Shown: positions 1-4,852 of the stretch, piece after piece
How the letters are laid out: every line of letters starts with the position of its first letter
Position numbering within the stretch: the first letter of the stretch is position 1
NCBI GenBank assembly: GCA_001303415.1
Contig: LJTN01000056.1
Coordinates: 1 to 36,053, forward strand
Length of the DNA stretch: 36,053 bases
From: Myxococcales bacterium SG8_38
Lineage (GTDB): Bacteria > Myxococcota_A > Polyangia > Polyangiales > Houyiibacteriaceae
Direction of reading: 5' to 3'
The notes under the pieces: model-generated
What the model was told of the DNA's origin: nothing
Seen by the model: only the letters and a program-made list of their open reading frames with translations
Database searches by the model: none
Program-made: the position numbers and the translations under genes

Positions 1-801
1 CCCGCGTTGGCCCGCGAGTTTCCCGGGAGGCTTTGGTTCGACCGCAACGCGCCGTACGCAGGCATCCCGCCCGGGAGGGACGTTTCCGCGATAGCCCGCA
101 CCTTCGTGGCTTTCGGGCAGCGCTCCGTCCCCTACTTGATTCCGCTTCTCGACCACGAGAACGCCGACATCCGTTACTACGCCACGCTTCTTGCTGCGGA
201 GTTCGTGCATCCCGACCTGGTTCAGCCGGTCGGGCGTCGATTGTTCGACGCGGACCCGGGCGTTCGCAGCAACGCGTATCGCACGTTGAGCGTGCTCTAC
301 GCCTGCGAGGTCGAGTTCACCCAGCTCATCGAGCGGCTGAGAGCCCTGGCCCGGGACGGCCGGAAGCTACAGAAGCAGATCACCTCGATCGATGCGCTAG
401 GGCGCTTGCGGGATACGGATTCGTTCGAGTTTTTCGTGTCGCTGCTCGAAAGCCCCGAGGCCGAGGTGGTGCGTGCCGCCCATGCGAGCTTGGTCCGCCT
501 CGCCTGCCAGGACTTTGGCACCAGCAAGCGCAAGTGGATCTCCTGGTTCGACAAGCATGGGGGGCGGCATCGCGTCGAATGGTTGATCGATGCGCTCATG
601 CACCCCGATGAAAGACTCCGGCGGCGGGCCGGCGACGAGCTCACACACCTCACCCAAGAGTACTTCGGCTATGAGCCGGGTCTTTCGAAAAAGGAACGCG
701 AAGCGGTGCAACAGAAATACCGCCTGTGGTGGGGCCGCGTTGGATTTCGTCTGTTCCTCGAGCCCGAGCCCCACGATTCTGGTCAGCCGCAGCGCGAGTG
801 A
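1..801 (+). CDS. HEAT-repeat-like protein, 5' end outside window
   Basis: The frame is open from base 1 to the TGA at 799-801. The TTG at 7 is the first possible start codon, but it is unlikely to be the real one. The protein aligns by eye along its whole length with the C-terminal two thirds of the minus-strand protein at 3842-4852, so about 100 or more N-terminal residues probably lie upstream. It consists of amphipathic helical pairs typical of HEAT-like repeats (for example VPYLIPLLD followed by IRYYATLLAAEF). It ends in a Trp-rich block with TSKRKWISWF, EWLIDAL and QQKYRLWW. No signal peptide or membrane helix is visible. The family usually serves as a protein-interaction scaffold and nothing here points to an enzyme. 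It lies 36 bases before the regulator gene on the same strand and may be co-transcribed with it. The partner is unknown. Confidence 0.75.
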   Translation, partial: PALAREFPGRLWFDRNAPYAGIPPGRDVSAIARTFVAFGQRSVPYLIPLLDHENADIRYYATLLAAEFVHPDLVQPVGRRLFDADPGVRSNAYRTLSVLYACEVEFTQLIERLRALARDGRKLQKQITSIDALGRLRDTDSFEFFVSLLESPEAEVVRAAHASLVRLACQDFGTSKRKWISWFDKHGGRHRVEWLIDALMHPDERLRRRAGDELTHLTQEYFGYEPGLSKKEREAVQQKYRLWWGRVGFRLFLEPEPHDSGQPQRE

Positions 802-837: not shown

Positions 838-3252
838 GTGCGAATCCCGAGGCTTCTGACAATTCTGGGCCCCGCGTCCGTTCTCTATGTTCTCGCGGCG
901 CGGGTCTCTTCAGACACCGCATCGTCGCCGTCGTGGTGGGTGGCTTTGTCGTCGTGTGCCTTTGCGTTGACGCCCCTTGCGGTCGCAGGCACGAGGAGCG
1001 TCCGCCGAAGCGCCTCCAGGTTGGCCGTGATGGGTCTCGGCATCGCCATCGCGATCGCTTCGGCGCGCAGCGGCTCGCCTGCGTTCGAACGCGCCCACGA
1101 TATCGCTTGGCTCGGCGTGTCCGTCGTCATGCTCGATTTGGTGCTGCTGCGTGCGACCCCGACCATCGTTCGGTACGGCTCGCTTGCGGGATTCGTGACG
1201 GCCGCGGTTGCGGCGTCGCTGCTTGCAAACGCAGGCTGGATTCCCGAGTCCGGGATTGCAGTGGTGGTCGTCGCTGGCATGCTGGCCGCCGGCGCTCTTC
1301 ACCAGATCTTGCTCGTCGAACGAGGCCACACGCTCGAAGGCGCGCTGTCCGGCGTCGCGTTGGTGGGCCTCGCCGTGGCTCTCGCATACGCTTGGCTTGG
1401 TCGCTTCGACGCTCCGTTGGCCGTCACGATCGAGCTCATGGTGGGCGCGCTGCTCTGGTCCGGGCACCTGGCTTGGGTCGACCCGCGATGGCGTTCATTA
1501 CGGCGCGTTGGAGTGCCTTTGATGGTGGCGAGCGGCTCGATCTTCCTGCTCGCCTATGCAGTCGCTTTGGCGCAGCCGTTGGGACGCTGGCAGCTCGGCA
1601 TGCTTGGACTGGGCTGTGGCATTGCGTGGTGGGCCGTCTTCTCTCTTGCACGGCGGATTTCGAGCCGGGCTGCATGGAGCTTGCCGGATCGCGTCTCCGG
1701 CGGGGCAGAGTCCGCCAGGCGCAATCTACTCGGAGCGACGACCGTCGAAGAGATTGCATCCGCCGTCGTGGCTCCATTGAACCGAGCATTCAACGAGAGC
1801 GATGGCGAGACCGAGCTCTACACGCTCGAGCCGTCGCTTCGAATCGCACTCGGCGCCGGCGACCGGGTGACAATCCGGTCTGCAGAGGTTCCAGAGCCCA
1901 TCTTGAAGGAAGTCTTCGCCGGGGAACAAGGCGCCATCTTGGATTTCGCCGATCTGCGCACCAGGGTGGTGCGGGAGCCTGCCATTCGCCCGTTGGTAGA
2001 GATCATGGAGGCGCGTTCGGTAGGAGCGATCGTTCCTTGCATGCACGACGGTCACGTCGAAGGCCTGCTCCTGGTTCCGCTGGCGGGCCGCTCGGAAACC
2101 CTTTCCCTCGTCGATCGCGAAGAGCTCGTCGAGTTGGGAGGCGTCCTAGGTGGTGCGCTTGCCTCCGCTCTCGCCCAGCGACGTGCGGAGATACGCATCC
2201 ATCGGCTCTCGACGTTGCACCGCGAAGCAGAGCGCCGCATCGGCCTGCTCGAAGGGGAGGTGGAACAGTTGCGGGGTCAATGTCACGTGCTCGGGCGGGG
2301 GCTCGCCGAGGATCAGACGTTGCACGTGGCTTACAGCCCATCGATGCGGCGCGTACAGACGCGGGCGATAGAGCTCGCGCCGCTCGACGAGCCCGTGCTG
2401 CTCGTCGCACCCGCGGGATCCCCGCTGCTGCCAGTGTCTCGCTTCATTCACGATCGTGGGCCCCGCTGGGAGGCGCCCTTCGTCGTTGCGGACTGCTCTG
2501 CCGCGTCTCCCGATCAGGTGATGGCCTTGCTTTTCGGCTCGCAAGAGGACCGGTACGCGGGCTGGTTCCACTCCGCCACCGGCGGAACTCTGTTACTGCG
2601 TGACCTCCCCGCGCTCCCGATGCCTGCCCAAGCTCGCCTCGCCGCGGCTCTATGCAAGTCGGAATCCCTTTCCGAGCATGGCGCGGAGGAGCAGCCGATC
2701 CCGCCGCGGATCTTGGCTACGTCTCGGATTCCGGCGAGCGAATTGCGACGGCGCGATGCTCTCGACGGAGACCTGGCTGCATTGCTATCGGGTCGAGGGC
2801 TCGCGATTCCGGCTTTGCGCGAGCGGCGCGAAGACATCCCGTCCCTGGTCTTGCTCGCGATCGACAGAGCATGCCGCATCCTGGCCCGAGATCCGGTCGG
2901 CATCGATCAAGACGCGATGGAAGCGCTGATCGCCCACGACTGGCCCGGAGACGTGGCCGAGCTCGAGCTGGTCATTTCGCTTGCGGTTTCGAAGACGAGC
3001 GCCAAGACGATCCCCGTCCGTGATCTGCCACCTCTGGCTTGGCCGGAAACGGCAAAGGAAGAACCGCTCGACGGCACCTATCTCGAGGTCGAGCGCCGCC
3101 TCTTGGAGCGAGCATTGCAACGAGCCGGCGGAAACAAGAGCGAAGCAGCCCGGCTGCTCGGCCTCAAGCGCACGACATTCCTCGACAAGCTGCGGCGCCA
3201 CGGGCTCGAGCAGCGCGCGCGGCATGACATGGGCGGGTCCGCGGTGAGGTGA
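838..3252 (+). CDS. Membrane-anchored sigma54-activator-like protein with degenerate AAA+ domain and Fis-type HTH
   Basis: The 804-residue protein starts at GTG. Residues 1-270 hold about ten hydrophobic helices. A GAF-like region follows at about 290-450, then a short coiled coil (about 455-490). Next comes a recognisable sigma54-activator AAA+ fold (about 500-720) and a C-terminal Fis-type HTH (about 750-792, with GGNKSEAARLLGL). The ATPase motifs are ruined. The Walker A region reads APAGSP (524-529) with no GK. Walker B reads GGTLLLRDL (582-590) in place of the family GGTLFLDEI. The GAFTGA loop is replaced by DRYAGWF (571-577). The sensor II arginine of WPGNVREL is Ala707 (WPGDVAEL). The surrounding fold signatures LRERREDIP and LLFG remain. 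It probably binds DNA while tethered to the inner membrane, without ATP-driven open-complex formation at sigma54 promoters. This is inferred from motifs, and its targets are unknown. Confidence 0.85.
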   Translation: MRIPRLLTILGPASVLYVLAARVSSDTASSPSWWVALSSCAFALTPLAVAGTRSVRRSASRLAVMGLGIAIAIASARSGSPAFERAHDIAWLGVSVVMLDLVLLRATPTIVRYGSLAGFVTAAVAASLLANAGWIPESGIAVVVVAGMLAAGALHQILLVERGHTLEGALSGVALVGLAVALAYAWLGRFDAPLAVTIELMVGALLWSGHLAWVDPRWRSLRRVGVPLMVASGSIFLLAYAVALAQPLGRWQLGMLGLGCGIAWWAVFSLARRISSRAAWSLPDRVSGGAESARRNLLGATTVEEIASAVVAPLNRAFNESDGETELYTLEPSLRIALGAGDRVTIRSAEVPEPILKEVFAGEQGAILDFADLRTRVVREPAIRPLVEIMEARSVGAIVPCMHDGHVEGLLLVPLAGRSETLSLVDREELVELGGVLGGALASALAQRRAEIRIHRLSTLHREAERRIGLLEGEVEQLRGQCHVLGRGLAEDQTLHVAYSPSMRRVQTRAIELAPLDEPVLLVAPAGSPLLPVSRFIHDRGPRWEAPFVVADCSAASPDQVMALLFGSQEDRYAGWFHSATGGTLLLRDLPALPMPAQARLAAALCKSESLSEHGAEEQPIPPRILATSRIPASELRRRDALDGDLAALLSGRGLAIPALRERREDIPSLVLLAIDRACRILARDPVGIDQDAMEALIAHDWPGDVAELELVISLAVSKTSAKTIPVRDLPPLAWPETAKEEPLDGTYLEVERRLLERALQRAGGNKSEAARLLGLKRTTFLDKLRRHGLEQRARHDMGGSAVR

Positions 3253-3256
3253 TGCG

Positions 3257-3841
3257 ATGACTCCGATTCTGCTCTGGGACGTCATGGGCACGCTCGTGCA
3301 CGACCCGTTCTTCATCGAGATGCCGCGGTTTTTTGGTATGACTTTCGATGACCTGCTCGAAGCAAAGCACCCGAAGGCGTGGGTGGAATTCGAACGAGGA
3401 GAGCGCTCCGAAGAGGAGTTCCTAGAAGGCTTCTTCGCGGACAGACGCGAGTTCGATCGGAAGAGCTTCGTACAATCGGTCCGTTCCTCGTATCGATGGA
3501 TCCCGGGGATGGAAGAGCTGCTTCGCGAGCTCCGCGAAGCTGGATGCTCAATGCACGCATTCTCGAACTATCCCATCTGGTATCGGTTGATCGAAGAGCG
3601 TCTTCGACTGTCGCGCTTTCTCGAGTGGACGTTCGTCTCGTGTCTCACCGGGTTTCGAAAGCCGGAGCCTGCCGCCTATGTCCACGTGCTACAGGAGCTC
3701 TCCGTAGCGCCCGACCGTTGTCTCTTCATCGATGATCGGCCGAGGAACTGCGAAGCAGCTCGCCAGGAGGGCATTCATTCCATTGTATTCGAAGGGGCGG
3801 CGCAGCTGCGCTCCTCGCTCGAACGCATGGGCGTCTTGTAG
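3257..3841 (+). CDS. HAD-superfamily hydrolase-like protein with altered motif I
   Basis: This is a 194-residue HAD protein of the haloacid dehalogenase/phosphatase type. Motif I is WDVMGTL, so the nucleophile Asp8 is present, but the +2 position is Met10, where phosphatases have the general acid/base Asp (DxDGT). Motif II is the Ser of SNYP. Motif III is the Lys of FRKPEP, and motif IV is FIDDRPRN. A helical cap of about 70 residues separates motifs I and II. The Met at +2 argues against simple phosphatase chemistry. Dehalogenase-type members also lack Asp there, but the substrate cannot be guessed. The gene starts four bases after the regulator stop, so the two are very likely co-transcribed. 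The next gene converges with zero spacing. The HAD assignment is firm and the activity is unknown. Confidence 0.88.
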   Translation: MTPILLWDVMGTLVHDPFFIEMPRFFGMTFDDLLEAKHPKAWVEFERGERSEEEFLEGFFADRREFDRKSFVQSVRSSYRWIPGMEELLRELREAGCSMHAFSNYPIWYRLIEERLRLSRFLEWTFVSCLTGFRKPEPAAYVHVLQELSVAPDRCLFIDDRPRNCEAARQEGIHSIVFEGAAQLRSSLERMGVL

Positions 3842-4852
3842 TCAATCTCGCCCACGTTCGGCCCACCAGCGTCGGTAGCGCTGCTGTACGTTGAGAAAGG
3901 CAGCGCGCTCGTCGGTTTCGGAAAGCGGCTCCAAGAAGCGAGTTAGCGCCCAGAGCTCGCGGGAAGCGAGCAGTCGGATATTGGCTCTGCCATCCCCGAG
4001 CCCTTCGATCAACCATTCGGTACGCGCCTGTTCCCTTCGCTCGGAAAGCCAACGAAGCCAGGATTCCTTGGAAGAGCCGAGCTCGTGCGCGGTCAAGACG
4101 CGCAAGCCGACGCGTGAGGCAGTTGCAACGCCGCGATCGAGGTCCGCGAGCAGCTCGACGAAAAGCGCCGTCGAAGCGTCGTCACGAAGCTGCGTCAGCG
4201 CGGAGATCGCGCGCCTCCTGAGCGGTGACGGCTGGCTGGCGTCCGACGCCTGGCGGCGGAGCTTGCCTAGGGCCGTCTGGTATGCGGGCTCGTGTCGGTA
4301 CTCGTTCAGCAAGTGGCGCGCGACGCGGCGGCAGTCCAGATCCTCGTCGAGCGCGGCCCGCGCCAACGGCTCGATCAGCCCAGTGTGTGAATATGCCGCG
4401 CAGACCAATGCAGCATGATAGCGGACGGTCTGCCGCGGGAGGCGCATGAGGCGATCCAAGTAGGGGACCGCCTCGTGTGCGAATGCCGCCAGGGCCGCGG
4501 CGGTGGCCGAGATCTCGTCTGGACGCGGCAACTCGGAGCCGACGATCAGTGGGGCATGCCACAGCGGCTCTGGGAAGCACTTGGCGATCTCCTCGAGCGC
4601 GAAGTTTCCGAGCGGAAGGAGCCGTCGAATGATCGGCCCAATTTGCGCCGGCTCGAGCGTCCGCAACTCCGCGACGAGGGATTGAGCTTGCTCGGCCGGC
4701 GTCTGCCCGCGGACGTTCGGCACGGTCGGGCGCCGAACGGCTGGCGGTGGAGCTTTCTGTCGAACGTGAGACCCTCCGTCCTCCGTGCGCTCGATCCGCT
4801 CCGTTGGAAGCACCCCTGCTGGAAGGAAGTGCTTTCGCCCTGACCCGTTCAT
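3842..4852 (-). CDS. HEAT-repeat-like protein, paralog of the protein at 1-801
   Basis: The 336-residue protein starts at ATG (bases 4852-4850). It has a Pro-rich N-terminus (about 1-50) followed by HEAT-like helical repeats. These include VPYLDRLM followed by VRYHAALVCAAY, and a Trp-rich end with SSKESWLRWL, EWLIEGL and QQRYRRWW. The same blocks occur in the same order in the protein at 1-801, so the two are paralogs flanking the regulator/HAD pair. There is no signal peptide. On the minus strand a TATAAA hexamer (4865-4860) sits about 7 bases before the start codon, and a GGGG stretch sits 3 bases before it. The mRNA may therefore be leaderless or have a very short leader. The role is probably protein binding, and the partner is unknown. 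Confidence 0.8.
   Translation of the reverse strand: MNGSGRKHFLPAGVLPTERIERTEDGGSHVRQKAPPPAVRRPTVPNVRGQTPAEQAQSLVAELRTLEPAQIGPIIRRLLPLGNFALEEIAKCFPEPLWHAPLIVGSELPRPDEISATAAALAAFAHEAVPYLDRLMRLPRQTVRYHAALVCAAYSHTGLIEPLARAALDEDLDCRRVARHLLNEYRHEPAYQTALGKLRRQASDASQPSPLRRRAISALTQLRDDASTALFVELLADLDRGVATASRVGLRVLTAHELGSSKESWLRWLSERREQARTEWLIEGLGDGRANIRLLASRELWALTRFLEPLSETDERAAFLNVQQRYRRWWAERGRD

Follow-up and report, generated by a model that had tools for sequence, protein, structure and literature searches.

A predicted membrane-anchored relative of the sigma54 activators in Polyangiales, with the ATPase motifs of its AAA+ domain lost

The sequence analysed here, referred to as the window, is the 36,053-nucleotide stretch of contig LJTN01000056.1 from Myxococcales bacterium SG8_38. 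Near its start lies a gene for an 804-residue protein related to the bEBPs, preceded after a gap of 36 bp by the truncated end of an MshEN-HEAT gene, whose MshEN domain is seen in a full-length copy from the same genus (L063), and followed after 4 bp by a gene for a HAD-like hydrolase. The GTG start is supported by the consensus of the aligned relatives, which opens with MRIPRLL. Related HEAT-repeat genes, at 1-801 and 3842-4852, bracket the bEBP-like gene and its HAD neighbour. The features on which the argument depends are as follows.

1..801, + strand: HEAT-repeat 3' part of the MshEN-HEAT gene, cut by the contig start (HEAT by Pfam)
838..3252, + strand: gene for the motif-dead bEBP-like protein, predicted to be membrane-anchored (804 aa, GTG start)
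844..1680, + strand: ten predicted transmembrane helices, residues 3-281 (hydropathy and AlphaFold2 helices)
1690..2112, + strand: GAF-fold domain, residues 285-425 (predicted model)
2107..2313, + strand: long helix, residues 424-492, a probable coiled-coil linker (helix from the predicted model, coiled coil inferred)
2317..3042, + strand: motif-dead AAA+ fold of the bEBP type, lid included, residues 494-735
2407..2427, + strand: Walker A relic APAGSPL, residues 524-530, Lys gone (alignment)
2539..2568, + strand: L1 loop with GAFTGA deleted, residues 568-577, GWF at its end (alignment)
2584..2607, + strand: Walker B relic GTLLLRDL, residues 583-590, DE changed to RD (alignment)
2707..2727, + strand: sensor I relic RILATSR, residues 624-630, Asn changed to Arg (alignment)
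2941..2964, + strand: sensor II segment WPGDVAEL, residues 702-709, Arg changed to Ala in the genus (alignment)
3079..3198, + strand: Fis-type HTH, residues 748-787 (Pfam HTH_8)
3257..3841, + strand: HAD-like hydrolase, 4 bp after the bEBP-like gene (Pfam)

The order of segments given in the original prediction, hydrophobic helices followed by GAF-like, AAA+-like and Fis HTH parts, is borne out by Pfam and the predicted model together. The proposed comparison with Pfam Sigma54_activat and HTH_8 places both matches above their curated cut-offs, at 46.5 bits (residues 499-646) and 45.4 bits (residues 750-787) respectively, as it does AAA_lid_14 at 53.2 bits, such that the features marking bEBP-fold descent, a Sigma54_activat AAA+ fold with its AAA_lid_14 and a C-terminal Fis-type HTH, are both present. 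The AAA+ fold is still well predicted, as judged by the AlphaFold2 model and a structure search which, though run with the full model, probes chiefly residues 490-737. The GAF fold is apparent in the predicted model, and Pfam yields no GAF match in this protein at E<=1. The early count of about ten hydrophobic helices also agrees with later predictions, ten hydropathy peaks within residues 6-271 (averaged over the alignment) and ten helices in the AlphaFold2 model, so that the protein is predicted to be an integral membrane protein with ten transmembrane helices.

This fold is retained in a protein lacking the hallmarks of a functional sigma54-dependent bEBP, namely the Walker A lysine, the GAFTGA motif and the Walker B DE pair, and likewise both arginine fingers and the sensor II arginine (the roles of the bEBP motifs are treated in PMC7175178). 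Conservation of these losses was followed in an alignment of 59 rows, comprising the window protein, 27 loci of the same family matched at E<=1e-60, 17 other loci of the order, a further 13 loci (ten from f3 and one each from f1, f9 and f12) and L085; the set includes partial rows, and its rows are partly non-independent. That Walker A (APAGSP) and Walker B (LLLRDL) had been lost, as first noted from the sequence, is confirmed throughout: the Walker A lysine, found in 5/5 canonical proteins, occurs in 0/59 rows, as do the Walker B aspartate and glutamate, the latter position being occupied by Asp in 53/59 (residue 589 in the window protein). The sensor I asparagine is similarly absent from all 59, with Arg in its place in 49 (residue 630), and the first arginine finger from every row. 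In some members of the order, such as L168 (GEPGTGL), Walker A is intact except for the lysine.

Two of the earlier statements on motif loss require amendment. GAFTGA is indeed gone, but it was not replaced by RYAGWF: the L1 loop between its flanking glycines has shrunk to 7 residues, compared with 14 in 5/5 canonical proteins, and RYAGWF is the remnant at and after the shortened loop. Across the alignment this loop measures 1-12 residues in 54/59 rows and 15 or 30 in the other five, which also lack GAFTG, and no GAFTG string occurs in any of the 59. Similarly, loss of the sensor II arginine (Ala707) holds for the window protein and is common to the 18 aligned genus rows, but the arginine is kept in 22/59 rows of the family; at the second arginine finger position, Arg is present in 21/59 and absent from the window protein. 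The original prediction had named orthologs with intact motifs as the observation that would overturn it. None appears among the 59 aligned rows, and the 133 database proteins P0002-P0134 (P0002 is the window protein itself and P0134 is partial) contain neither a G-x4-GK nor a Walker B DE string; four matches to a loose GAFTG-like pattern all fall within the transmembrane region. The underlying protein search gave 154 matches, of which 120 were listed. The loss of the ATPase motifs is thus family-wide in the rows aligned.

The family is widespread within the order and is maintained by selection. A match at E<=1e-60 was found in 28/33 genomes of the same family, including 18/19 of the genus, and one at E<=1e-50 in 50/183 genomes and 23/83 genera of Polyangiales (families f1, f2, f5-f9 and f12). 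Searching the class at E<=1e-40 returned 241/289 genomes, mostly by the AAA+-HTH part only, which resembles what canonical bEBPs would give, and added further colinear relatives in f3. None of 72,556 plasmid records held a match covering 80% of the query; in the contig search the single-protein query retrieved no relative, and the alignment query retrieved relatives. In one genus genome two halves of the protein lie far apart (G019:C1:2286591-2287952 and 206429-207463), possibly through misassembly or rearrangement.

Among the 12 closest genus pairs, whole-protein omega (NG86) ranges from 0.129 to 0.204. Within the six closest, it is 0.10-0.25 for the AAA alpha/beta part and 0.04-0.08 for the HTH, the part with the lowest value being the HTH in four and the long helix in two (L037-L041 and L041-L042); in a separate pair, L049-L050, the omega of the HTH (0.28) exceeds that of every other part, the AAA part being at 0.23. 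All parts are under purifying selection in the pairs tested. By mean identity to the window protein in 44 genus rows and 12 family rows, respectively, the HTH is the most conserved of the six parts (89% and 79%), followed within the genus by the lid (71% and 51%), the AAA part (68% and 42%), the long helix (67% and 30%), the transmembrane part (57% and 23%) and the GAF domain (50% and 29%).

Taken together, we consider it reasonably probable that this protein is a one-component regulator, predicted to be held in the inner membrane by its ten helices, in which the motif-dead AAA+ domain likely acts only as a folded scaffold, passing a signal from the membrane or the GAF domain on to the Fis-type HTH. 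Since the Walker A lysine and GAFTGA are both missing, neither ATP burning nor the usual engagement of sigma54 would be expected, and since the core residues of the ATP-using motor are gone in all aligned members, gene control by this family likely proceeds without ATP. Canonical bEBPs and a sigma54 gene are present in the same genome. The transmembrane and GAF parts could sense a signal, which the 69-residue helix would transmit, probably as a dimer, to an AAA+ domain that may set the spacing or pairing of the HTH; the HTH would then bind DNA and, by analogy with VpsR, could activate or repress promoters of the main sigma factor in an ATP-free manner. The initial reading of a tethered DNA-binding protein devoid of ATPase activity stands insofar as a predicted membrane-tethered bEBP relative that has an HTH but lacks the ATPase motifs is well supported. 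A DNA dyad with 6-bp half-sites was sought in 33 upstream regions, and none was common to more than two loci; such a dyad was rejected as a binding site, its sharing being limited to the congeneric pairs L188/L189 and L191/L192.

Known systems offer partial parallels. The canonical bEBPs NtrC, ZraR, PspF, FlrC and DmpR have the same AAA+ fold and lid and mostly a C-terminal Fis-type HTH, but possess the ATPase and sigma54-contact motifs lost here, and the GAF domain of NifA (8jrc) differs in that ten predicted transmembrane helices precede that of the window protein. In the NtrC proteins of Rhodobacter capsulatus and Caulobacter there is a receiver domain but no transmembrane helix, and VpsR of Vibrio cholerae has a receiver-type N-terminal domain in contrast to the ten transmembrane helices and GAF domain of the window protein. 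VpsR and the GAFTGA-less NtrC nevertheless provide precedents (PMC10274813): in R. capsulatus and Caulobacter NtrC, as in the window protein, GAFTGA is deleted from L1, and both are reported active at sigma70 promoters, but the former requires ATP binding and the latter its Walker residues, which the window protein lacks. VfmH is a further precedent (PMC10714721).

Although the HTH is so strongly conserved, it is not universal. L215, L216, L217 and L221-L224 of f3 and L226 of f1 end shortly past the lid, such that 8/58 rows (L047, cut by its contig, excluded) keep the transmembrane, GAF and dead AAA+ parts and have no HTH; it is also absent from P0138 and P0140 and retained in the f3 members L218-L220. 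In the HTH-less rows a short tail, acidic in most, stands in place of the HTH. Because these eight relatives do without it, the family can dispense with DNA binding, and they speak against a purely DNA-binding role. These rows, in which the core is kept, lend some weight to a different view, to which we would give perhaps a minor share of credence, that the protein serves mainly in membrane signalling or as a scaffold, together with the MshEN-HEAT protein, and that its DNA binding is a dispensable output.

The gene order bears on this view in both directions. The MshEN-HEAT gene is the immediate same-strand upstream neighbour in 10/10 genus loci (nine fetched and the window), where gene-caller-based counts place a HAD hydrolase downstream in eight, a convergent HEAT gene in nine, and prmA and rsmE upstream in eight and six, respectively. 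Outside the genus it occurs in the fetched flank of 11/24 loci and of 1/12 more (L226), hence in 12/36, where L200, common to the two sets, enters only once and L074, with its target uncalled, is omitted; the profile behind these counts derives in part from the proteins it scored, and MshEN is confirmed by Pfam in nine of the 12, with L191, L192 and L203 resting on the profile only. However, no such gene was seen in the fetched flanks, some of them short, of the other 24/36 loci, nor in the flank of 7/8 HTH-less rows. Where present it lies directly upstream only in L197, L198 and L226, with one intervening gene in six loci and three in two, and L072 has it downstream on the opposite strand; ligA and a Ser/Thr kinase also recur among the neighbours. 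From this order the MshEN-HEAT protein is likely a partner of the bEBP-like protein, yet the HTH exceeds every other part in mean identity, within the genus as in the family, which speaks against DNA binding as a dispensable output. A link to c-di-GMP through this partner was also considered and rejected: by-eye comparison with the MshEN motif and its RLG, as described in PMC5013675, finds the MshEN segments lacking the Arg and Gly of RLG, and canonical c-di-GMP binding is therefore doubtful.

A less probable alternative, which we hold to be unlikely, is that the protein is a regulatory subunit joining the rings of active bEBPs in the same cell and damping or tuning them. Suitable partners exist, for the genome contains canonical bEBPs: 15 other loci (L009-L023) score 216-256 bits for Sigma54_activat against 50.6 for the locus at 838..3252, all 15 with the Walker A pattern, 14 with GAFTGA or GSFTGA and one with GAFTDA; two further loci score 146 and 75 bits, the latter with an internal stop. 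The retained AAA+ fold and the arginines persisting in some rows at sensor II and the second finger position would also suit such a role. Conversely, the first arginine finger is lost in 59/59 rows and GAFTG is found in none, and the neighbours scanned with Pfam, which are part of the total, reveal no consistently placed canonical bEBP. In L191 a canonical bEBP lies one gene away, and L192 has a gene of the same cluster.

An artefact of annotation or assembly, or a pseudogene in decay, as the low Sigma54_activat score of the gene relative to the 15 other loci might suggest, is extremely improbable, given a stop-free match in 18/19 genus genomes (one split in two places and one cut by its contig), omega well below 1 and relatives with open frames and identical losses, by which pseudogene and sequencing error are ruled out.

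Returning to the ATP-free membrane regulator, we may ask how it arose. A FastTree phylogeny of 76 sequences unites the motif-dead rows included, a selection of those available from which the later f3 set was excluded, in one clade (41/41), with weak splits for the family (0.715) and within it (0.604). P0137 and P0139 join this clade next (0.932), with the Walker A lysine kept and Walker B and GAFTGA lost, and are possible intermediates of motif decay; L087 and L093 join thereafter (0.854), having the lysine but no GAFTGA, and in L087 also an altered Walker B. The node beyond is unsupported (0.475), and the 31 comparison rows, L087 and L093 among them, have the lysine in 31/31 and the Walker B aspartate in 30/31. 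This successive branching is as stepwise decay would give. P0137 and P0139 have a different, membrane-type N-terminus. L087 and L093, candidate sigma54-independent regulators from records titled Acidobacteria and Thermoanaerobaculum, have an N-terminal segment that appears FHA-like by eye. Tentatively, and with somewhat less assurance than we attach to the present-day function, we propose that an ancient Polyangiales family could have turned a sigma54 activator into an ATP-free membrane regulator by losing GAFTGA, Walker B and Walker A in that order, with the AAA+ body retained purely as a scaffold for signal relay, and that one branch may have lost the HTH too, becoming a membrane pseudo-AAA+ protein that signals via protein partners.

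Where members of the family have been given a name in sources, as with P0035 and several JGI names, it is that of an NtrC-family or sigma54-dependent regulator, a label that is likely misleading. The literature search, with most subscription journals outside its scope, listed no bEBP-like protein that is bound to the membrane and has lost every ATPase motif. Such a protein raises the question of how a membrane-fixed DNA-binding protein would reach its DNA sites, and the graded set of proteins, beginning with canonical ones, passing through those without GAFTGA and Walker B and ending with the fully dead, offers a means to test what role remains for the bEBP AAA+ domain when ATP is no longer hydrolysed.
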